DNA of 64,000 nt from Liolophura sinensis (taxonomy: Eukaryota > Mollusca > Polyplacophora > Chitonida > Chitonidae): positions 868,001 to 932,000 of the forward strand of contig NC_088300.1 of assembly GCF_032854445.1 (NCBI RefSeq), given 5' to 3'. A program made the translations under genes and the position numbers. A model generated the notes under the pieces. That model had not been told where the DNA came from and made no database searches. It saw only the letters and a program-made list of their open reading frames with translations. Numbering within the stretch: position 1 is the stretch's first letter; every line of letters begins with the position of its first letter. This document shows positions 708-61,100 of this stretch, piece after piece.

Positions 708-3700
708 TGCAAACAATTTCATCAGAGCTTCCTGAGCTGGTTTCAGCATTTCAATCTTAACACTGTCATCCACTTCATACCCCTGGGTTTCCAGTACACT
801 GAGATGGTTTGAGAGAAGCCGACTCCGGAGCAGTGTCTCCTGAAAAGAGGAAGGAGAAGAAGAAATGACGGATTGTATCAAACGCATCACAACATTCATA
901 ACAGTCATCTGAATGGGACGAAATTGGTCTGTCCATTGAAATAAAAACTCAATTTCTGCTTATATTTATTGAATTTGTGTTTAAATGAAATATTTAGAAT
1001 TATACAAAACCTCAATTTGGACATCTATATAATCCAACAAAGCAATCTGTGCAAATTTTGGCTATTTATTACATCTGTATCGTCTAGTCTAACAAATCTC
1101 TGTCAGTTGTAAAAACATTATCTTTTACCCTATCCAAAGTGGACAAAAAATGATGTTTATGTATACTGTATCAGTGTATTTGTGTATTGGTCAAAACAAC
1201 CTTCAGTGCATGTTCATCTTTACAGAGGTACTTTTCAACCAAGTCAGTATTTGCCTCTATTAAACAGACAAGCTGTGGTCTTGTCTATATCACAACAGAT
1301 TCTTCTGGAGTATAGTGTAATCTTACACCAATAACAGACCAGACTATCTGTCATGTAATGTCACCAAAATAAAACAAATAACTATGGTAAAGGCCTTCAC
1401 CAGGTCATCAAATGAACACGTGTATTGATAAAGGGAGGTAATCTCACCTCGTACTGACTCTTCTCCGTGCTGAGTTCACACAGAGGCAGCTGGTAAGGCA
1501 GTACTGACACCATGGGGCGGGGTAAGGTCGGGGGGAACTTGGAACCCTTACACATGATACACCTGTACACAAAACACAGGATATTTTAGAGGCAACTCCT
1601 GGTAATTTACCAACCATAGAGAAACAGAGGAAACAACAAGGAATATCCAATGTTCTTCATCTCAAACAATTTAATCTTTACAATGAATTCTAAAATTTAA
1701 GTTCAGTGCCTCATTTTATTTTCTATCTTGTGACTCAAAATTTGCATTGATCAGAATAAAGAAAAATGTTGCAAGGAATGATATTCTTTAAGGCTTGATT
1801 TACATGTAACTGGGAGGACCAGCAGCATCAACAAAAACTACCAGAGCAGGGATATGAAACGGAAAGATTTCCCACATAGAACTCCTTACCCTTATCCCTC
1901 CAGCACTGCTCAGTACGTTAACAGCAACCTTACACCACAACATTGTTGTCTGTTGTCACCACAACATTGTTGTCTGTTGTCACCACAACATTGTTGTCTG
2001 TTGCTACTACCTGTGTGGTACAGATCTAAAATTACCACACAATAAATTAAACATACCTCAACTGTTGTGGATTTTCATGAACTCCAACAATCCAGTAATG
2101 ATCAGACTTTCCTCTTGCCTGTGAGTGGGAATGTTCAATCAGCTTTCAGATATAACTCTTATTTACAACACAGTCACAAACAGCCCAAACACCCAGGTGA
2201 AGCATAAAAAGAATGGTCAATCAAATATGCACATTTAGTTTTTTATTTGATTGTTCTTTTATGAAAACTCACGATCATCCGCAAGTTGCTGAGAGGTCTT
2301 CCTACTGTGCACACTTAAGACAAACTTGAGAATAAATGGCAACAATAACAAATGTATGTCATGGTACACATTTCTGATAAGTAAGAGCTAAAATACAAGT
2401 TGACTTGTATTTTAAGTTTACTTGTATTTTAGGCAATGTTTAAAACCAAAAACCTTGATTTTTTTTTAAACCTTGGGTTATTTAAGTCAAAACAGACACT
2501 AAGCTGGTGTAAGGACAGAAACTATTCACCTGACAACAAGCCACTTTCCAAAATAACTAAATTCAGCCGCAGTGTAAACATGTAGCCTCTACTCACATGA
2601 TGGTTTGTGTTACAGACTTGAATCCATGTGTTCCCCAGGCTGCGATTCAGCAATCTGACAACTCCAGAGGAATCCACCAGGCCTGGGGTTCCTTCTGCAG
2701 AAAACCTGCAACATGCCATCAAAACATCTGTAACATGCCACCAAAACATCTGTAACACGCCACCAAAACATCTGTAACATGCCACCAAAACATCTGCAAC
2801 ACACCACCAAAACATCTGCAACACGTCACCAAAATGTCAGTAGTCACTGACATATCTCACTACTATAAGTCACTGTCATCCAATACGGAACATAAAAAGC
2901 TGGAATTAGAATTCAGAATACTAACAATTGTTCTTTACTTTCACCTTTTGAAGAGATTACTGTGAACCTTGTAGAACATACCTAAAGAACCTGACCCTGA
3001 CCCTAACCTCAGTAACATGTTTTAGCAGAGCTCAGATGATTCTTATTTTACCCATCACCCCGGGGAGAGTTTGTGCTAAACATCATAATGCTTACCCCAG
3101 CCAGTTCAGAGTAGAACGAGGGCTCAGAGGAACAGACTCTCCACCAAGCAGGGATTTCCGTCTTGATCCAACATGTAGGAGAATACATCCCAAGCACTGA
3201 TCACCAGGTACACCTGTGGTTACATTTACAGGCAATGCAACAATACCAGTAACAGTTCTCTGCTGCTCAATCCAAGATCAGAATCATTTTTGCTCCAATG
3301 CAACATTTGAATATTGATTTATTATGCTCACTCTGCTATTATTGTGCTGAAGACATTTTGGTACTGAAGCATTCAAGTTTGCTTCAACAAGCCATATTAA
3401 GGTTTTCTTTATCTGGTTCCCATCAACACTTCACAATGTAACCATTGCTACGTGTAGTTGATATCAACACTTCACAATGTAACCATTACTACGTGTAGTT
3501 GCCATCAACACTTCACAATGTAACCATTACTACGTGTAGTTGCCATCAACACTTCACAATGTAACCATTACTACGTGTGATTGCCATCAACACTTCACAA
3601 TGTAACCATTACTACATGTAGTTGCCATCAACACTTCACAATGTAACCATTACTACGTGTGATTGCCATCAACACTTCACAATGTAACCATTACTACGTG

Positions 3701-9200: not shown

Positions 9201-12200
9201 GATACCTGCCAGGATTATGTGTTGAAAAGCCCTACTAATCAGTGCTGAATCCATGCATTAGACCTACACACTGGGTGCTTTTCCAGAATTACTCAGGGTA
9301 TGACTTAATCTATAATTATCCCTACGTGTACACCTCTTAATTAGCATCCTGAAAATCATATAAGTAAAACTGTTTTGCAACAAATATTTTAAAAAAACAC
9401 CGGAGTTGTTTTTAGATCCTTGAAAAGCATGTACAGCATAGTGACTGTGCGTTATGATGACAGAATTTCGCTGACAAACAGGACACTGTAGATGACGCAA
9501 ACATGCTCCCGCCTGGTTTGTCTGCTACAAATTGGACACGGTTGTACTCATGGAGAATATGGCATCGTTTCACAGTCCACAGTCTATAAATTTTTACAGC
9601 CAAGTCAAGCAATACCGGCGCGACACAAGAATCTATGCTGTCGGGCCAGAGGATTGGAAGTTGTAGTGACGAGCTAGAAAAGTCTGTACATCAACACCGG
9701 GGAAAATAACAATCAAGCTCATTTTTTATTATGTTTAATTTTTAAAAAGTATCCCCGGCAAAAATAAATAAGGCTTGAATTATATTGAATAGAAACAGTG
9801 ATTGGTTAGACATCTAAATGCCAATTTTGAGCCCTGTTACGGTCATCGAGGTGTGGCATGTTGTGAGGTATCACGCGCCCGCTGTGCTCGGTGTGAACAG
9901 GATGGCCGCCCTGTAGCCGCCTAAACATCGAAGAGCAAAGACTCCCTACAGTTCGTGACACAGCCTGCTGTTTCAAACAAGCAAGTACTTAAACAACTTC
10001 TGCATTCAGGGGAATGAAAATCCCAACTTATTTTCTTTTTCATTATGGGGGGACATATGCCTCGTCTTTCTGCCTTTTCTTTCAACATAGGCATGATTGA
10101 ATTAGTCTCATACATGTACGGCTACAATCGATCCGGTCCTCCACAATCAAAGGCTGTTTACGATGAGATATCTGGTACATATTCTCTCAATCTGTCGCAT
10201 TTTTTGGCCATGTATGTAACTGTATAGTGTGTGTTACTGCTGTCACAAGCCACACTTGGGCATGGTATAGTTTCAAAATTAGTTATAAGTCTAGGAATTG
10301 TCTCCTGTATTGTGTGTTGTACACAGAGAAGCCCGCATGCCTGCCAGCGAATGTACCACCGTGACATCACAAGGTCAAGGTCAAGGTCAAGGATGGCTCG
10401 ACCATAGTCGGGTACATTTTCTGATGTTTCATCACCAAATTCTACGCTTTTTCCTCCCTTTTCTATGTTTTAATCCATTAAAATGGTTTCTATATGCAGT
10501 TTGGAAGGTCCAACATGCCACACAAGAACCTGTATTGTACTTCATTTACACGCAGACTGAGAGGCAGGTTTATTAATGTTTGGTCACAACTAAAACAAAG
10601 ATACATGATTAAGATGGATGACAACCATACCTGTTCAGGGGCATCAGCAGAGACAACAGCTTCAATGAGCCCAAGTTGACCCTAGGGGAAAGTTTCAAAT
10701 GAGAACATGATCAGCACAACAGGTCAGGGTCATGAAGCAACTCGTAACAGAGCAGACTATCTAAATCAGAGAATTCATAGCTCAATGATTTTAAATCCAC
10801 TGCTGGATTAACATTACGGAATCTAATCCTTGTCATACATTTACAGGGATAGTATAAGGCTAAAACATAGAGCTGATCCCTGTACACTTAAGTTTAATAA
10901 TTTTGTATCAGTGAAGCTGATCACAAGAATTGACATCTAACCTGGTTATCACAATACGCCATCTCATTGTTTCCTTTAGGGTTCCACGCCAAAGCTGTGA
11001 TCATCAGATTCTTGTCATGTTTGGTTCTGTCAGAAAGAGGAGGGTAAAGGAATTATGGATGTGTTTGGTTCTGTCAGAAAGAGGAGGGTAAAGAAATTAT
11101 GGCATGTTTGGTTCTGTCAGAAAGAGGAGGGTAAAGAAATTATGGACATGTTTGGTTCTGTCAGAAAGAGGAGGGTAAAGAAATTATGGACATGTTTGGT
11201 TCTGTCAGAAAGAGGAGGGTAAAGAAATTATGGATGTGTTTGGTTCTGTCAGAAAGAGGAGGGTAAAGAAATTATGGACATGTTTGGTTCTGTCAGAAAG
11301 AGGAGGGTAAAGAAATTATGGACATGTTTGGTTCTGTCAGAAAGAGGAGGGTAAAGAAATTATGGAAGTGTTTGGTTCTGTCAGAAAGAGGAGGGTAAAG
11401 AAATTATGGATGTGTTTGGTTCTGTCAGAAAGAGGAGGGTAAAGGAATTATGGATGTGTTTGGTTCTGTCAGAAAGAGGAGGGTAAAGAAATTATGGACA
11501 TGTTTGGTTCTGTCAGAAAGAGGAGGGTAAAGAAATTATGGAAGTGTTTGGTTCTGTCAGAAAGAGGAGGGTAAAGAAATTATGGAGGTGTTTGGTTCTG
11601 TCAGAAAGAGGAGGGTAAAGGAATTATGGAAGTGTCTGGTTCTGTCAGAAAGAGGAGGGTAAAGAAATTATGGACATGTTTGGTTCTGTCAGAAAGAGGA
11701 GGGTAAAGAAATTATGGACATGTTTGGTTCTGTCAGAAAGAGGAGGGTAAAGAAAATATGGACGTGTTTAGTTCTGTCAGAAAGAGGAGGGTAACGAAAT
11801 TATTGATGTGTTTGGTTCTGTCAGAAAGAGGAGGTTAAAGAAATTATGGACATGTTTGGTTCTGTCAGAAAGAGGAGGGTAAAGAAATTATGGACGTGTT
11901 TGGTTCTGTCAGAAAGAGGAGGGTAAAGAAAATATGGACTTGTTTAGTTGTCAGAAAGAGGAGGGTAACGAAATTATGGACATGTTTGGTTCTGTCAGAA
12001 AGACAGAGGAGGGTAACGAAATTATGGCATGTTTGGTTCTGTCAGAAAGACAGAGGAGGGTAACGAAATTATGGCATGTTTGGTTCTGTCAGAAAGACAG
12101 ATGAGGGTAACAAAATTATGGACGTGTTTGGTTCTGTCAGAAAGAGGAGAGTAAAGAAATTATGAATGTGTCTGGTTCTGTCAGAAAGAGATCCATAACC

Positions 12201-15200
12201 AGGCTATGGTCAACTTCAAGCCTAGCTTTAAGTCAGTATTTTGAAAAGGTGCTGCTGTTTCTCAGTTTCCTCCATCCAAAAACCTAAATGCCTTCATACA
12301 TTACAGAAAGAAATTCGTAATAAGACTATGGTCATGTTGGGCTCTGCCAGAAAGACCACAGCACATTCTGGACATGTCTGGTCCATTCCTGCTGATTACA
12401 GTTGTGTATCACTCTGAAACATTACCAGTTCACCAGTTTGGTAGCTTGAAAGAGACATCTAACAAAACTGGTCACGTTTGGTTCTAATTAGAAAGAGATA
12501 AAACCATTTACAGAAACCAGGATGCCTGAATTATATTTACAACGTTTAAGTGACATACCTTGAGACACATTTCTTGGTCTTCCAGTCCCAAACACAAACA
12601 ACACCATCAACACAGGAAGCAGCCAGATAGTTTCCACATGGCGAGAATGTGACAATTGACACCAGCTGTGAACACACGAACACAAATAACACCATTAACA
12701 CAGGAAGCAGCCAGATAGTTTCCACATGGTAAAGAAGGTGATGACTGACACCAGCTGAGAACACACAAATAACACCACCAACACAGGAAGTATCCAGACA
12801 GTTTCCACATGGTGAAGAAGGTGACGAATGACACCAGCTGAGAACACACAAATAACACCACCAACACAGGAAGTATCCAGACAGTTTCCACATGGTGAAG
12901 AAGGTGATGACTGACACCAGCTGAGAACACACAAATAACACCACCAACACAGGAAGTAGCCAGACCACTCCACATGGTGAAGAAGGTGATGACTGACACC
13001 AGCTGAGAACACACAAATAACACCACCAACACAGGAAGCATCCAGACAGTTTCCACATGGTGAAGAAGGTGACGAATGACACCACCACACAACCACCACT
13101 AACTCACCACCATTAACATGACAAATGTAATGTACTGTTTTACTGAAGGATTTCTATGTAAATCTCCATGAATAATGATCTGACCATCAGGCATTAGCAT
13201 TTTCCCATTTCTAACAGTAGAGAAACATAAAATTATATGTGATTTGCAAATAACACAGGTACGATAGTTATTTGTTTATTTATCTATTTATTGGTGTTAA
13301 TCACAATACTCCACACTTTTTTTTAAAAAACTCTTACAGTACTAGTCGTCACTTTTATGTGTGGAGAAGATGTACAGAGTAAACCATTTGTCAAGCCATT
13401 GTCAAGCAACTGAGTGGCACAGCTTTCCTTAGTGTTAGTGTGACGCACAAACCTTCATCTGCATGGTGAGCTTATGGTGTATGTTATATTCATGGAAGGC
13501 AAACAAACTTCATGGTCAGATCAGCTTTGTACGGTTTCTTGCCATCAATGTTCCAATCTTCGTTGATAACCCAAGAGGATATACCAAAGATATTTGTCAA
13601 AAAATTGATCAGTGCAAATCTAATCAAATTTTTTCTGTTTCAGAATAGTCCAAACTTTAGTACTGTTTTAACACTATAAATAGTACAGGTACAAGTCTGA
13701 AAGGCAATAATTTATGTTAATTTCGGTAAAGACAGAAAACGTATTGATTAGCGAATATGGGGTTGTTGCCAAAAACCTATGGTAGAGATTCTTTAATGGA
13801 TTAGTATACTAACATGACAACAAATCAATTTATTATTAACAAACAATTGTAAATACCTCTTTGATGGAGCCATCAGTCAATGAGTGGACTTTCTTCCATG
13901 AATCTCTTTCATACACGTGCACTTCTTTCTCCACTGGGACGACAAGATTCTAACACAAAAGAGATAAAAAGTAGAGAAACATAAAAATGTTAACGTCATA
14001 GCAAAAGGAAGAAACTACAATGGAGTCCTCTGTGGTTAGCATGCCAGCACAGCTCAATGGCCCAAGAGCCTCACACCAATGCATTCGCAGTGAGCTCAAG
14101 TCCAGCTCATGCTGGCTTCTTCTCTGGCCGTAAGTGGAAAGGTTTGGCAACAACCTGCGGATGGTCGTGGGTTTCCCCCGGGTTCTGCCAGGTTTCCTCC
14201 CACCATAATGCTGGCTGCCGTCATATAGCTGATATATTCTTGAGCATGGTGTAAAACACCAATCAAATAAATAAATAAATAAATAAATAAAACTACAATG
14301 CACTCATGCAAACATCTGATCTGACTTTATTGGTCTTTTCACTACAAAAGTCAGCATACATGTGCATTTAGCTAGTGTAACATAGTGAGACTGATATTCT
14401 AAAACCTCTGCCCTTGGTGTGTGTCACTGCTTACCTTCCCAGTCTGTGGTTCCCAGCAGAGGCGACATAATGTCTTGGACAGGCTGTCAAAGAGTGTTTG
14501 AAATGTATAAGTTAGCCTGGATCAACAGCAACCTCACAAATAAATAAACCATTAAATAATTCAAAAATTTGGGTTAAATTTTAATTCAAATGACTTTATG
14601 CTAATTATTTTTTTTCCACTGTCCATGTGATTCCCAGAAAATATGCTGCAAATGTCATGTATGGTCAGGTATAAAAATTAAATACCCTTAATCTTTATCC
14701 AAGTCATCGGAGGAGACCTCAATCCTGAAGATCTGCATGACTTTGCAGCAAAACAATATGACAGTAAGAGCTGATAATTCACATATTCCTAAAGAGGAAT
14801 CAAAGAAACAGTTGTTTAAAATTTTAAGCAGGAGCAGTCAATAAAACCTTGTTTAATATATAAGAGTATGTGAACAGCAGTATTGCATTTGTTGGATATA
14901 CAAGGGTATGTGAACAGCAGTATTGCACTTGTTTGATATATAAGGGTATGTGAACAGCAGTATTGTGCTTGATTGATGTGTAAGGGTATGTGAACAGCAG
15001 TATTGTGCTTGATTGATATGTAAGGGTATGTGAACAGCAGTATTGTGCTTGATTGATATGTAAGGGTATGTGAACAGCAGTATTGTGCTTGATTGATATG
15101 TAAGGGTATGTGAACAGCAGTATTGCCCTTGATTGATATATAAGGGCATGAGCTCAGCAATATTGCACTTTTTTGATACATATATAGAAAGGGCATGTGC

Positions 15201-18200: not shown

Positions 18201-21200
18201 AGCCTCGTATATTTCTACATTTTTCTACATTTTACTGATATCCAATAATGTACTCACATCTATCAAAAAATATGCATGTCACTGCAGTCAGCTGAGTGCT
18301 GACTGCAACAAGGTTTGGAGATGGTCCAAATATGGGAATATCTTCACACGCACCAAACCAGGACAACTTTCCTACATTGAGCCTCACATAAGCCAAGTAT
18401 GAACTCAGTCAGACCTGATACCTGTATGAAGCCAGACCTGCATGAAGCCAGACCTGTATGAAGCCAGACCTGCATGAAGCTAGACCTGCATGAAGCCAGA
18501 CCTGCATGAAGCCAGACCTGCATGAAGCCAGACCTGTATGAAGCCACACCTGCATGAAGCCACACCTGTATGAAGCCACACCTGCATGAAGCCACACCTG
18601 TATAAGTCAGCGACTAAACATGCCAGACAGGTATTCTCTACAGCAATAGTAACTGAAGACGACTAAAATGCATCAAACTAAACAAATCTTCCAGGAGGAT
18701 ATTTATTATTCCCAAAATATCAAAACTGGATATTACTGAACTCCTTCACTATGAAGATGTTACAAATTGCTATATGTACGTGTAATCAAAACAGGGAGAT
18801 AACTCACCACCATGTCCTCGTTTGGGTGAAGTGCCACACTGAGAACTGGGGCTTCATGGCCAGACAGGGCTCTGAATTCACAACTTTCCACATCCACAAC
18901 TTTTATACTAAAATCACTGAAAATTGTATAAGACATCAAGTTTAGCTGAAAATCCATAACACACCAATTTAGTTCACAGTTACATAATCAATGCTCATCT
19001 TTTCAACACATGTACTTCAAATATTGCAGCAGGCAGGTGTAGAAGGCAGTAACATAAACAAGTCATAGCAGGCTTTTTGAAAGGAGGAAAAATTGGCAGA
19101 CAATAATGTTTTGACTATCTTGAATACTATTGAGTAACAAGCAACTTTTGTATGCCCAACACAATTAAGATATATCTGTGACAATTTGTGTACAAACCTA
19201 GCACCAGCTACAAGTGTACTACCAGATGAGTTCAGGCACATGTGAGTCACAGGGGAGGTAAATCTGGTGATGATCCCATCTGGAGCTCCATCAGGGAAAG
19301 TGTAGGCTTGGACAGAGTTTGAGTCAGATGCAGTAAAAAACCTGTCGTTCTGAAATTTTAAAAGTATCCAATTAATGAAAATTAGTGTGTTAACTAGAAG
19401 GAGTGGCTTTCACTCAGAAGATTTCATCACTTTGACATGTTAGCACTTCCTTCTGATAGGAGAACCAAACCCAGAATCACATGAATGGTGGTGGAACATT
19501 CTGGAAACATGCAGTTGAGTTAGGCTGAATAAGGCTGTCAGGCCATTTGGAAACGTGCAGTTGAGTTAGGCTGAATAAGGCTGTGAGGTGATTTGGAAAC
19601 ATGCAGTTGAGTTAGGCTGAAAAAGGCTGTCAGGTCATTTGGAAACGTGCAGTTGAGGTAGGCTGAATAAGGCTGTCGGGTCATTTGGAAACATGCAGTT
19701 GAGTTAGGCTGAATAGGGCTGTCAGGTCATCTGGAGACATGCAGTTGAGGTAGGCTGAATAAGGCTGTCAGGTCATTTGGAAACATGCAGTTGAGGTAGG
19801 TTGAATAGGGCTGTCAGGTCATTTGGAAATGTGCAGTTGAGGTAGGCTGAATAGGGCTGTCAGGTCATTTGGAAACATGCAGTTGAGTTAGGCTGAATAA
19901 GGCTGTCAGGTCATTTGGAAACATGCAGTTGAGATAGGCTGAATAGGGCTGTCAGGTCATCTGGAGACATGCAGTTGAGATAGGCTGAATAGGGCTGTCA
20001 GGTCATCCGGAGATAAGCAGTTGAGGTAGGCTGAATAGGGCTGTCAGGTCATTTGGAAACATGCAGTTGAGGTAGGCTGAACAAGGCTGTCAGGTCATCC
20101 GGAGATATGCAGTTGAGGTAGGCTGAATAGGGCTGTCAGGTCATTTGGAAACATGCAGTTGAGGTAGGTTGAATAGGGCTGTCAGGTCATTTGGAAACAT
20201 GCAGTTGAGTTAGGCTGAAGAGGGCTGTCAAGTCATTTGGAAACATGCAGTTGAGGTAGGTTGAATAGGGCTGTGAGGTCATCTGGAAACATGCAGTTGA
20301 GTTAGGCTGAATAGGGCTGTCAGGTCATTTGGAAACATGCAGTTGAGTTAGGCTGAATAAGGCTGTCAGATCATTTGGAAATATGCAGTTGAGGTAGGCT
20401 GAATAGGGCTGTCAGGTCATCTGGAAACATGCAGTTGAGGTAGGCTGAATAGGGCTGTCAGGTCATCTGGAAAGATGCAGTTGAGGTAGGCTGAATAGGG
20501 CTGTCAGGTCATCTGGAGACATGCAGTTGAGATAGGCTGAATAGGGCTGTCAGGTCATTTGGAAACATGCAGTTGAGTTAGGCTGAATAAGGTTGTCAGT
20601 CATTTGGAGACATGCAGTTGAGGTAGGTTGAATAGGGCTGTCAGGTCATTTGGAAACATGCAGTTGAGTTAGGCTGAATAAGGTTGTCGGGTCATTTGGA
20701 AACATGCAGTTGAGGTAGGCTGAATGGGGCTGTCAGGTCATCTGGAGACATGCAGTTGAGGTAGGTTGAACAAGGCTGTCAGGTCATCCGGAGATATGCA
20801 GTTGAGATAGGCTGAATAAGGCTGTCAGGTCATTTGGAAACATGCAGTTGAGTTAGGCTGAAAAAGGCTGTCAGGTCATTTGGAAACGTGCAGTTGAGGT
20901 ATGCTGAAAAAGGCTGTCAGGTCATTTGGAAACATGCAGTTGAGTTAGGCTGAATAAGGTTGTTGGGTCATTTGGAAATATGCAGTTGAGTTAGGCTGAA
21001 TAGGGCTGTCAGGTCATATGGAAACATGCAGTTGAGGTAGGCTGAATAGGGCTGTCAGGTCATTTGGAAACATGCAGTTGAGGTAGGCTGAATAGGGCTG
21101 TCAGGTCATTTGGAAACATGCAGTTGAGGTAGGCTGAATAAGGTTGTCGGTCATTTGGAGACATGCAGTTGAGGTAGGTTGAATAGGGCTGTCAGGTCAT

Positions 21201-34800: not shown

Positions 34801-36579
34801 TTCTCTGTTCAGGCAGTACTCTTATGATATAAGCCAGTACTCCTATGATATAAGCCAGTACTCCTATGATATAAGCCAGTAACCCTATGATATAAGCCAG
34901 TACTCCTATGATATTAGCCAGTACTCCAATGCTAAAAATTGGAGGAGTACTCTACTGCCTCAAAAATATGTTTATCTGGAGTACTATAGGACCTTTGGTA
35001 TATATTTGTTTAATATTCTGTTCTGTCTCTTTTTTCCTTAGGTGTCTGTCAGGACAGTATTTGTGTGGAAGCAGAAGAGAGCAGCTCAGCTCCAGCGGTG
35101 AGCACACAAGATGATGAGGCCATGATTCTGCCAGCATCCAGTCGGCTGAGAATGCATCGGTCAGCTGTACGGCCATTCTTCTGCTGTGGGAGTGAGTTGT
35201 CTCTGGTCAGTATCACTGATCAGGATGAGCTCCCCTGTCAGGATAAACCCACAGTGAGCAGTAGCTGCCCAGAACCAGATCTACAGACTAATGGATTAAG
35301 CGCATGTGCAGAGGTTTTGCTGTCCAGTCACAGCGATGAAGGCAGTTTCCCTGAGGGCAAGTCAAGTAGGGACCGCTCCCTGCGGAAGAAATCTGTTGAA
35401 GGCTTCTCTCGAAAAATGGCTCGTAAGTCATGGGCAGTTAAACTGAGAGGGAAACTACCAAAACGCCTGAAGAATGGAGAGGACCACGGGAACTTAGCGG
35501 CATCCGGGTCAGGGATGGAAGTTAGCTGCACATGTACAGCGTACAGACAAACTGATGGACAACCAGTACTGTATTGTTACGGGGCAGCATCCTCAGATAA
35601 TGGACCTCTACCTATACCAACAACATTTGGAGGACTGGACACTGATCAACCCACAAAATCAAAAGGTACCAAAGGTAAAGGGCGGGCAAAGCCAAAGGCA
35701 CACAATGGTGCAGGTCAAACGGGCGTTTCCGCATCCACCATGTTTAAGGCTTGGATTGGCGTTGATACATCAGATGCTGAATCTGTGGATGACATGAGTC
35801 TTGTACAATGCAAAGAACAAGGTGCTGTGGATAAGTCACGCAGAGTAAGTCTGGACTCAAAAAACCTGCTTTATTCCTGCAACGGTGGGACGCTTTTCAC
35901 CCCTGCTTTTCAGAAACAATGTACAATATCTGGTCCATGGCCCCAGTCTGTGGGAGCTGGGGTAGGGGAGAGCAGCGTTGATGCCTCAGAGGAGGAGAAT
36001 CAGTATTCTGACGTGGCCAGTCTAGGTCCTCGTGCACCATATGTGTCTGTACACTCACAGGTGGACTATGTTCATTGTTTGGTTCCAGACTTGGCGTGTA
36101 TCACTAACTGTAGTTTTTACTGGGGTGTTATGGACAGATACGAGGCAGAAAAGCTGCTAGAGAACAAACCTGAGGGTACTTTTCTGCTGAGGGACAGCGC
36201 CCAGGATGAATTCCTCTTCTCTGTCAGCTTCCGGCGTTATGGTCGCTCGTTACATGCCCGGGTAGAACAGTTTAACCACAAGTTCAGTTTCGACTCACAT
36301 GACCCAGGTGTTTTTGCCACAGACACCGTTTGCGGTTTGATCGAACACTACAAGGACCCAAGCTGCTGCCTGTTCTTTGAACCCATGCTTACTCTGCCAC
36401 TGAACAGGTCCTTTCCCTTCAGCTTACAGCACTTGTGTCGATCTATTATCGTGAGTGCCAACACATATGACGGCATCACTCAGTTACCTTTACCTAATTC
36501 CCTACAGGGTTATCTACGGTATTATCATTACAAGCACAAGGTCCGGGTGCGAAGTCTGGAAACTCAGTGTTGTTGGTAA
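31825..36579 (+). CDS. SOCS5: SOCS4/SOCS5-type suppressor of cytokine signalling
   Basis: Proteins of this class bind phosphotyrosine on receptors such as EGFR or on JAKs and recruit an Elongin B/C-Cullin5 ubiquitin ligase in the cytoplasm. The coding sequence is 31825-31834 joined to 35042-36579 (1548 nt, 515 residues, stop TAA). The 10-nt first exon gives ATG GCC ACC A and a gtaagt donor; the acceptor is ttag at 35038-35041. No ATG exists at the start of the long frame, so the small exon is needed. The first ~350 residues are Ser-rich with basic patches ([20 protein letters not shown]). The [10 protein letters not shown] motif precedes an SH2 domain at about 363-455, with the phosphotyrosine-binding Arg387 in FLLRDSAQ. 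The SOCS box at about 461-505 has a BC box (LQHLCRSII) and a Cul5 box (LPLP). SOCS4 and SOCS5 arose in vertebrates, so this is probably their single pro-orthologue; the symbol is a family label. Its neighbour WDHD1 matches the human SOCS4 neighbour. Confidence 0.93.
32680..32910. repeat. 35-bp tandem array, about 6.5 units
   Basis: The unit is cagccatgttctcagaatgt followed by ttcttctataccccc. Located in the SOCS intron. Confidence 0.92.
34815..34930. repeat. 21-bp tandem array, 5 units
   Basis: The unit is cctatgatataagccagtac plus t. It lies about 110 bp upstream of the SOCS exon 2 acceptor. Confidence 0.9.
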
Positions 36580-39010: not shown

Positions 39011-39990
39011 CAGTGCCGGAACAAATATTGCACATGTGCATTTATACTGACAGAATGGAGAAGTAAGCCTATGTGCCAGTAACAGTATTGCACATGTGGA
39101 TTTATACTGACAGAATGGGGAAGTAAGCTTATGTGCCAGTACCAGTATTGCACATGTGTATTTATACTGGCAGAATGGGGAAGTAAGCTTATGCACCAGT
39201 ACCAGTATTGCACATGTGTATTTATACTGGCAGAATGGGGAAGTAAGCTTATGTGCCAGTACCAGTATTGCACATCTGTATTTATACTGACAGAATGGGG
39301 AAGTAAGCCTATGTGCCAGTACCAGTGTTGCACATGTGTATTTATACTGGCAGAATGGGGAAGTAAGCTTATGTGCCAGTACCAGTATTGCACATGTGCA
39401 TTTATACTGACAGAATGGGGAAGTAAGCCTATGTGCCAGTACCAGTGTTGCACATGTGTATTTATACTGACAGAATGGCGAAGTAAGCCTATGTGTCAGT
39501 ACCAGTGTTGCACATGTGTACTTGTACTGGCAGAATGGGGAAGTAAGCTTATGTGCCAGTACCAGTATTGCACATGTGTATTTATACTTGCAGAATGGGG
39601 AAGTAAGCCTATGTGCCAGTACCAGTATTGCACATGTGTATTTATACTGGCAGAATGGAGCAGTAAGCCTATGTGCCAGTACCAGTATTGCACATGTGTA
39701 TTTATACTGGCAGATTGGGGAAGTAAGCCTATGTGCCAGTAACAGTATTGCACATGTGCATTTATACTGGCAGAATGAAGAAGTAAGCCTATGTGCCAGT
39801 AACAGTATTGCACATGTGTATTTATACTGGCAGATTGGGGAAGTAAGCCTATGTGCCAGTAACAGTATTGCACATGTGTATTTATACTGGCAGAATGGGA
39901 AAGTAAGCTTATGCACCAGTACCAGTGTTACACATGTGTATTTATACTGACAGAATGGCGAAGTAAGCCTATGTGCCAGTAATAGTATAC
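39011..39990. repeat. 60-bp tandem array, 16 units
   Basis: The unit starts tgtgccagtaccagtattgc and includes acatgtgtatttatactggc and agaatggggaagtaagctta. The 60-bp period leaves long open frames in both directions (331 codons on the minus strand), but no start, splice or domain signal supports a gene. Confidence 0.95.
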
Positions 39991-58100: not shown

Positions 58101-61100
58101 ATACATGTACAGTAGGTTGATCACACAGGGGCACATACATGTACAGTAGGCTGATCACACAGGGGCACATACATGTACAGTAGGTTGATCACACAGGGGC
58201 ACATACATGTACAGTAGGTTGATCACACAGGGGCACATACATGTACAGTAGATTGATCACACAAGGGCACATACATGTACATGTAGGTTGATCACACAGG
58301 GGGCACATACATGTACAGTAGATTGATCACACAGGGGCACATACATGTACAGTAGGTTGATCACACAGGGGCACATAGATGTACAGTAGGTTGATCACAC
58401 AGGGGCACATACATGTACAGTAGGTTGATCACACAGGGGCACATACATGTACAGTAGGTTGATCACACAGGGGCACATACATGTACAGTAGGTTGATCAC
58501 AACAGGGGCACATAACATGTACAGTAGGTTGATCACACAGGGGCACATACATGTACAGTAGGTTGATCACACAGGGGCACATACATGTACAGTAGGTTGA
58601 TCACACAGGGGCACATACATGTACAGTAGGCTGATCACACAGGGGCACATACATGTACAGTAGGTTGATCACACAGGGGCACATACATGTACAGTAGGTT
58701 GATCAGACAAGGGCACATACATGTACAGTAGGTTGATCAGACAAGGGCACATACATGTACAGTAGGTTGATCACACAGGGGCACATAACATGTACAGTAG
58801 GCTTATCACACAGGGGCACATACATGTACAGTAGGTTGATCACACAGGGGCACATACATGTACAGTAGGTTGATCACACAGGGGCACATACATGTACAGT
58901 AGGTTGATCACACAGGGGCACATACATGTACAGTAGGTTGATCACACAGGGGCACATACATGTACAGTAGGTTGATCACACAGGGGCACATACATGTACA
59001 GTAGGTTGATCAGACAAGGGCACATACATGTACAGTAGGTTGATCACACAGGGGCACATACATGTACAGTAGGTTGATCACACAAGGGCACATACATGTA
59101 CAGTAGGCTGATCACACAGGGGCACATACATGTACAGTAGGTTGATCACACAGGGGCACATACATGTACAGTAGGTTGATCACACAAGGGCACATACATG
59201 TACAGTAGGTTGATCACACAGGGGCACATACATGTACAGTAGGTTGATCACACAGGGGCACATACATGTACAGTAGGTTGATCACACAGGGGCACATACA
59301 TGTACAGTAGGTTGATCAGACAGGGGCACATACATGTACAGTAGGCTGATCACACAGGGGCATATACAGTAGGTTGATGCTTTAATAGTTGCACCCTGAA
59401 CATTCTCCACCCACCTAAATAATAAGGCCCACGCTAACCATACCAGATGGAATCCTCCTGTTCAATAATTACTGTAAGAAATAATGAGTGTTCAAACGTT
59501 CAGCTCACACTTAAGGAGAGATATAGGGAATTGTTAACATTAAAATACAAAATGCCCCCTGATAATGTATTTAGACTGATCAAAAGGTAGAGAGGAACAA
59601 TACATTTTGACAACTTATCTGCACTATGCTTAAAGGCTTATTATGACGGACCACTGACAACTCACCACTGAAGCAGAACTGTAGAACCTGGGTACACCAC
59701 TGATCCAGAATTTCTGAAACATAGTTACAGCTTTATTACAATCAGTCTGATGCTGACATTTTGTAACCAGGTATCATTTATTACTTTGATCGGTGTCTTA
59801 ATTTTCCCTTCAGGGCAGAATCTCCATTGGGTAATTCTATTCTGCATGATGTTATCATTCACTGGTGAAGAAACAGCCAATCTTCACCGCCTGGCCCAGG
59901 TCAGTGAGCCTTGGCTAAAAAAACAAAACTGTTATTTGGACTGATTCCCTGAGTGGTTCAATACAGAGCTCAGGAATAAATCAATTATACCATGGCAACA
60001 GCCTATTTTGATCACTCACTACTATTACAAGGCATGCAACGGAGGCTGCTTTTCAACACCTGCATAATTTTATTGAGAAAGGAGGGCTATTTTGTTCATC
60101 ATTTTTTATGAAAATAAAATGGAAACAGGAAACTTGGGCCTCACATATATAAATTGGAGGCATGCAAAAAAGTTATATGTAGGTTTGTACTGCCACTTAT
60201 CAGTGAACAATCGATGCATTAGGTGTGCTGTGATCTTGTTTATCATGGTTTACATACTTCAATTGCTTCGCTTGTTTGCTAAAATAAGGGTGGGGACAGA
60301 TTTAACATCATATTTTAACATTACTTCCGTCATTTTCACTATTGTATCTCCTCACAGCAGATTGGTCCCGACGCTGCCACATTTACACAGCAGATCAGTC
60401 CCAATGCTGACATATATACACAGCGGATCAGTCCCAATGCTGACACATTTACATAGCAGATCAGTCCCAATGCTGACATATTTACACAGCAGACCAGTCC
60501 CAATGCTGACATATTTACACAGCACATCAGTCCCAATGCTGACATATTTACACAGCAGATCAGTACCAATGCTGACATATTTACACAGCAGATCAGTCCT
60601 AATGCTAACACATTTACACAGCAGATCAGTCCCAACGCTGACACATTTACACAGCAGATCAGTCCCAACGCTGACACATTTACACAGCAGATCAGTCCCA
60701 ATGCTGACACATTTACACAGCAGATCAGTCCCAATGCAAACACATTTACACAGCAGCATCACACTATCCGTTCAATCTTGAAGGTCAGTTGTTATTTGTT
60801 AGGGAGTGCATTAACTGTCATTCAAGCAATGTAGTTGTGAAAGTAACCCAGAGTTGTTAGGAATCAGGTGCTGTCATGTGGTATAGCAATGTCTGTTCAC
60901 TGAATGATAAGCTATACACAAAATTTTAACATATGAGAAGTGGGTGAATGACAAACGTGGCAAGCCCCAGATTCCTGGCCAAAGTCATAGAAATGGTAGA
61001 AATGGTAGACAGGCATGTAACATTGGCGCTGAACGTTAACTGGCACTACATATCCATGTAACATTGGTCCTGAACATTAACTGGCACTACAAATCCAAGT

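Follow-up and report, generated by a model that had tools for sequence, protein, structure and literature searches.

Tandem arrays of splice acceptors at exon edges of WDHD1 in the chiton Liolophura sinensis

The WDHD1 gene and its acceptor arrays

The stretch of DNA analyzed here (hereafter the window; 64,000 nucleotides of contig NC_088300.1, positions 868,001 to 932,000) carries on its minus strand a gene for which an 18-exon model, running from 19349 down to 708, yields a single open frame of 685 residues. This frame aligns colinearly with residues 97-801 of human WDHD1 (E 7.9e-228) and is ungapped in that alignment at the C|D, D|E and L|M exon junctions, confirming the identity assigned to the gene in the original prediction (an earlier WDHD1 search had used 161 residues). 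The model covers the gene from the exon at 19349 onward, and the number 9 originally given to exon E is provisional. Three exons of the model lie at arrays of repeated splice acceptors, as follows:

10942-11026, minus strand: WDHD1 exon E, 85 nt, in an open frame colinear with human WDHD1; its 5' edge is the repeated piece, and the real acceptor lies just before 11026
11018-12190, minus strand: 44-bp acceptor array of exon E, in which the real acceptor and 25 decoys are intact (26 in all) and one copy is broken, from Tandem Repeats Finder (TRF) and unit-by-unit reading
12559-12665, minus strand: WDHD1 exon D, 107 nt, in an open frame colinear with human WDHD1
12592-13084, minus strand: 83-bp acceptor array of exon D, its unit made of the first 75 nt of exon D and a few bases ending in CAG, with four intact decoy acceptors, from TRF and site scores
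2597-2705, minus strand: WDHD1 exon M, 109 nt, in an open frame colinear with human WDHD1
2706-2834, minus strand: 22-bp acceptor array of exon M, 5.9 copies with five decoys, running up to the real acceptor, from TRF and site scores

The original prediction of about 26 tandem splice acceptors before exon E is borne out by the 26 intact copies on the minus strand and by the TRF assignment of 11018-12190 to 26.5 copies of a 44-bp unit with 93% matches. On the minus strand the unit reads ataatttctttaccctcctctttctgacag|AACCAAACA followed by variable bases, the acceptor being composed of a pyrimidine tract, CTGACAG and then AACCAAACA, with the junction CTGACAG|AAC present in all 26 intact copies. 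Successive acceptors are spaced 43-48 nt apart, except for one 86-nt step across a broken copy near 11949 that has lost its AG; 26 of the 27 units thus retain this dinucleotide, and splice signals are kept in many copies. The exon-nearest copy, which had been proposed as the real site, is by its homology to human WDHD1 the working acceptor (exon start 11026), and we saw no sign of a coding function for the array.

When the 21 regular units were compared column by column, positions +1 to +9 (AACCAAACA) matched the exon but for single changes at +4 and +6, and positions +10 and +11 (TG in exon E) were the most variable columns, in a manner that looks like CpG decay. Realignment thus upheld the presence of exon bases in the units, and of the composition originally given for them the pyrimidine tract and acag stand; the "first ten bases" of the exon were correct to within a base or two, since +1 to +9 match the exon while +10 and +11 vary. 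Furthermore, an acceptor core from -16 to +3, with a boundary picked after the data were seen, is invariant across the 21 regular units, compared to variation in 11 of the 25 other columns, and this might reflect constraint on the decoys.

The arrays of exons D and M share the essential arrangement of the E array, in that each of the three is built of a boundary-spanning unit that joins the end of an intron to the start of the next exon. The copy directly before the real D acceptor matches nucleotides 1-75 of exon D, with its last part identical at 45 of 47 positions, and the stretch preceding this acceptor is therefore itself derived from the exon. The unit of the M array shares few bases with its exon, in a match that requires a 2-base gap. 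Both arrays had been overlooked in the earlier reading, as had the donor arrays at other loci and the known amphioxus kind, both described below.

The presence of a complete 3' splice site in every unit would also be expected if the units were a dispersed mobile element bringing its own acceptor, in the manner of introners. A search of the 609-Mb assembly with the E unit, in which very common words are left out, returned 15 matches, and all 15 are confined to this one intron instead of lying at many unrelated loci. Together with the fact that the 3' part of the unit is exon E's own sequence, this result makes a mobile origin scarcely credible.

Beyond the array, two diverged and older copies of the exon E boundary were identified, one of them with a remnant acceptor at 12343:

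12323-12355, minus strand: older diverged copy with the acceptor and 21 exon bases (alignment score 21; best of 500 shuffles 16)
12468-12497, minus strand: older diverged copy with the acceptor and 16 exon bases (alignment score 19; best of 500 shuffles 16)

None of the 500 shuffles matched the score of either copy; a third putative remnant at 12362-12382 (score 13) did not beat the shuffles and is not claimed. Moreover, the farther a unit lies from the exon, the less it resembles the E consensus (26 units; Spearman -0.61, p 0.001). The two older copies and this gradient agree with the original suggestion of growth from the exon edge, and an origin of the array from that edge in more than one round appears well supported on sequence grounds, the older and longer copies having come first and the 44-bp array afterwards.

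Arrays at other loci and their expected frequency

To place the WDHD1 arrays in a genomic context, we analyzed 82 loci sampled by Pfam family: the best 30 of 81 myosin head matches, the best 25 of 132 kinesin matches and the best 27 of 57 UCH matches. These are the best-scoring matches of each family and not a random draw, and some of them overlap. The sample contains two acceptor arrays and five donor arrays:

L041, kinesin: acceptor array, 64 bp, 11 decoys, 3 of them without AG (AG kept in 9 of 12 copies)
L087, UCH: acceptor array, 59 bp, 19 decoys
L023, myosin: donor array, 66 bp, 7 decoys
L031, myosin: donor array, 32 bp, the real donor scoring 6.4 and six nearby decoys likewise 6.4
L054, kinesin: donor array, 73 bp, 20 decoys, one of them GC
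L085, UCH: donor array, 99 bp, 7 decoys, the unit including most of the exon's end
L083, UCH: donor array, 31 bp, with 6 further copies among those listed, one of them without GT

A second run of the 32-bp family is found 695-919 nt past the real donor of L031, where the listed copies have TT for GT; the nearer run keeps GT. At the acceptor edge of a further locus (L029), a single near-identical copy lies far upstream with a 41-bp minisatellite in between, and this locus is left out of the list of arrays.

A uniform scan was run over 200 splice sites, 36 in WDHD1 and 164 in the 82 loci, to mark those with at least two near copies. It flagged 8 sites and none of the 200 shuffled controls, so that the E array exceeds what chance would produce. 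The 164 sites retain low-scoring predictions (73 of the 82 acceptors and 74 of the 82 donors pass the cut), and six of them were flagged, at L023, L031, L041, L054, L087 and L085, the last with its junction misassigned. Stricter scans flagged four of the 164 (L023, L041, L054 and L087); they flagged L085 at the wrong site, called as an acceptor though the unit junction is a donor, and the strict 44-nt scan missed L031. The uniform scan, like the scans based on match ends, missed the WDHD1 M array and L083, the latter having been spotted by eye and then confirmed.

Of the sequence in the 82 loci, 12.7% lies in tandem arrays whose unit is 15 bp or longer and occurs in 2.8 or more copies. In the window, which is unusually rich in minisatellites with 27 non-redundant arrays (units of 15 bp or longer), the share is 31%. 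A seed unit put down blindly would have a probability of 1.04% in the 82 loci, and of 2.3% in the window, of covering any one junction with 5 nt to either side. Blind seeding thus predicts 1.7 flagged sites in 164, with P values of 0.09, 0.03 and 0.008 for at least 4, 5 and 6 sites; when ten internal sites and the L085 donor are added post hoc, the resulting 6 among 175 sites give P 0.011. In WDHD1, a gene chosen because of the finding, 3 of 36 sites lie in arrays compared to 0.83 expected (P 0.05). A null based on random intron positions, 95 of 436 of which fall within arrays, would on its own imply depletion at splice sites; such positions hit arrays more often because they are drawn from sequence that has already been amplified, and this null was dropped for over-counting it. 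Against the seed-based expectation there is no depletion. Splice sites are thus not avoided by arrays and, in this small sample, may be favored, and such boundary arrays are probably common in the chiton genome.

The counts leave room for seeding that was not blind, with splice boundaries serving as preferred starts of tandem duplication through, for instance, boundary sequence or transcription. Some preference is possible because four (strict scans) to six (relaxed scan, one misassigned) of the 164 sites were seen against 1.7 from blind seeding, and the WDHD1 excess, in a gene selected for it, points the same way. The sample is small, however, the scan threshold was set by us, loci overlap, the expectation varies with how arrays are counted, and most of the 61 arrays in the 82 loci touch no sampled splice site, so that we regard preferred seeding as a conceivable but doubtful explanation.

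The recurrence of like arrays at other loci also bears on whether the E array was produced by misassembly, to which tandem repeats are often subject; in the present assembly, the mitochondrial contig resembles a concatemer. Errors of this type are nevertheless very improbable here: both substitutions and indels set the E units apart from one another, in a pattern graded along the array, and at 1.2 kb the array falls far below the mean HiFi read length, 8,347 bp according to the available parts of the L. japonica assembly paper (PMC11068029), if the present assembly is that one.

Choice among equivalent splice sites

The strength of real and decoy sites was assessed with a small matrix derived from 67 acceptors and 58 predicted donors, which scores the site alone. 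The 25 decoys of the E array score 6.7-8.6, compared to 8.2 for the real acceptor; the four intact D decoys score 6.9, compared to 5.6; and the five M decoys score 6.8-8.5, compared to 7.6. In each of the five acceptor arrays, in fact, the score of the real site is equaled or exceeded by at least one decoy, and every one of the five donor arrays has decoys that tie with the real donor, so that site strength as measured by this matrix was rejected as the selector. What the real sites of all ten arrays have in common is position: the site in keeping with the reading frame sits at the exon-side end of its array, being the 3'-most acceptor or the 5'-most donor.

Choice of the shortest intron or of the first-transcribed acceptor would pick a decoy, strength would not set the real site apart, and pairing across the exon would give the site to which the protein points; the positional pattern in these sequences therefore favors selection of the real site by exon definition over selection by strength, intron length or order of transcription, and repressors bound to the array may act as an alternative selector. 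The scheme that we propose starts with a seed unit lying across an intron-exon boundary, whose local amplification would generate the array of splice sites. The spliceosome would pair sites across the exon, and the site adjoining the exon body would for this reason win even though decoys are equally strong or stronger. Splicing to a decoy would introduce an early stop into the transcript, which nonsense-mediated decay should then eliminate.

Computed translation shows what decoy use would entail. Of the 26 E decoys, a total that counts the remnant beyond the array with the 25 inside it, 16 would shift the frame, in line with the original statement that use of distal sites usually does so, and this statement can be refined, as all 26 lead to a stop 37-124 nt beyond the end of the preceding exon and none preserves an open frame. 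Use of E decoys could thus presumably only lower output, via nonsense-mediated decay. Stops also follow from three of the four D decoys and four of the five M decoys; the remaining D decoy (-255) and M decoy (-66) keep the frame open.

These two open frames, the intactness and strength of the decoys, and the invariant core of the E units, which is what selection on decoys would give, are compatible with decoys being regulated alternative sites, serving as a brake through unproductive transcripts at E or yielding in-frame variants at D and M. Such a role is unlikely, given that nearly all decoys of the three arrays lead to stops, that AG has been lost in 3 of the 11 L041 decoys, and that unrelated genes carry arrays at a rate near that predicted from blind seeding or a few times higher.

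How the spliceosome chooses between a real site and an equal decoy is usually studied with built constructs. The value of the arrays lies in their being a natural experiment on this choice, with decoys that match the real site and differ in number and distance, at donors and acceptors alike; whether the site giving the shortest exon wins separates exon definition from strength, intron length and transcription order. Extrapolating further, it is plausible, if a little short of an even bet, that thousands of splice sites in this chiton lie among arrayed copies of themselves that match or exceed them in strength, and are chosen by their position beside the exon body alone. Were this true, the chiton genome would offer a test of exon definition already set up by nature, and boundary arrays would steadily drive the lengthening of introns.

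Relation to known boundary repeats

The original report of splice-site repeats termed mirages is reportedly that of Canestro 2002. According to the accessible portions of two later papers (PMC3087553, PMC3902484), amphioxus mirages are minisatellite-like tandem duplications over an intron-exon boundary, involving 5' or 3' splice sites, that occur in Adh3, the globins BflGb6 and BflGb9, TnC and PGBD5, retain AG or GT in many copies and are reported to be spliced normally. The chiton arrays, known from the genome sequence of one haplotype, share the boundary-spanning minisatellite and the kept splice signals; for undisturbed splicing of the chiton gene, the colinearity of the frame with human WDHD1 is support of an indirect kind only. 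On what those portions describe, they differ in having up to 20-26 copies, compared to 6 and 3 in the amphioxus globin clusters, in their mollusc host, in the occurrence of three arrays in one gene and in the first frequency estimate given here.

Taken together, these data suggest, with a probability of roughly 0.8, that the E array is a mirage, a minisatellite that arose locally from a seed unit lying across the intron-exon boundary; intronic minisatellites are abundant in this genome. The chiton arrays thus apparently represent a known kind of repeat in a new phylum. A literature search with thin coverage of subscription journals found mirages described only in amphioxus and no report of boundary arrays in molluscs, and the words "tandem" and "intron" have no occurrences in the main text of the L. 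japonica assembly paper (PMC11068029). The arrays would add a mollusc to the animals with mirages, together with a first rough estimate of how frequent they are, and their presence at a few percent of the sampled exon edges provides a natural test of site choice.

Two other known systems share features with these arrays. The tandem dual-specific splice sites of human UBC, and introns that lie within tandem repeats, likewise involve repeat units that each carry a splice site, and in the available part of the source (PMC10809524) one element acts as both donor and acceptor, within coding repeats, and gives rise to ladders of isoforms. Unlike that type as described there, with its AG|GT element, the chiton E units are intronic and read CAG|AAC, without GT at the junction. 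Internal gene duplication has reportedly been described as a source of new introns by Rogers, Zhuo 2007, and Gao and Lynch 2009, and shares with the chiton arrays a duplicated boundary as raw material for splice sites; the chiton array, in contrast, lengthens an existing intron, and no new intron is shown.

Several further observations were made in the course of this analysis. In the window, SH2 and SOCS-box domains are encoded in a run of 521 codons free of stops (35014-36579, plus strand), which marks a SOCS-like gene. Two window arrays, at 39026-39988 (60-bp units) and 60353-60761 (33-bp units), have units that are multiples of three and overlap long stop-free frames, and they are possibly coding repeats. 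Finally, the mitochondrial gene order fits the ancestral order of molluscs; the mitochondrial contig (C99) has seven COX1 matches about 15.5 kb apart, an arrangement that looks like a concatemer, and its translation alternates between Y and M over a long stretch near 12.3-12.8 kb, which points to a simple repeat.
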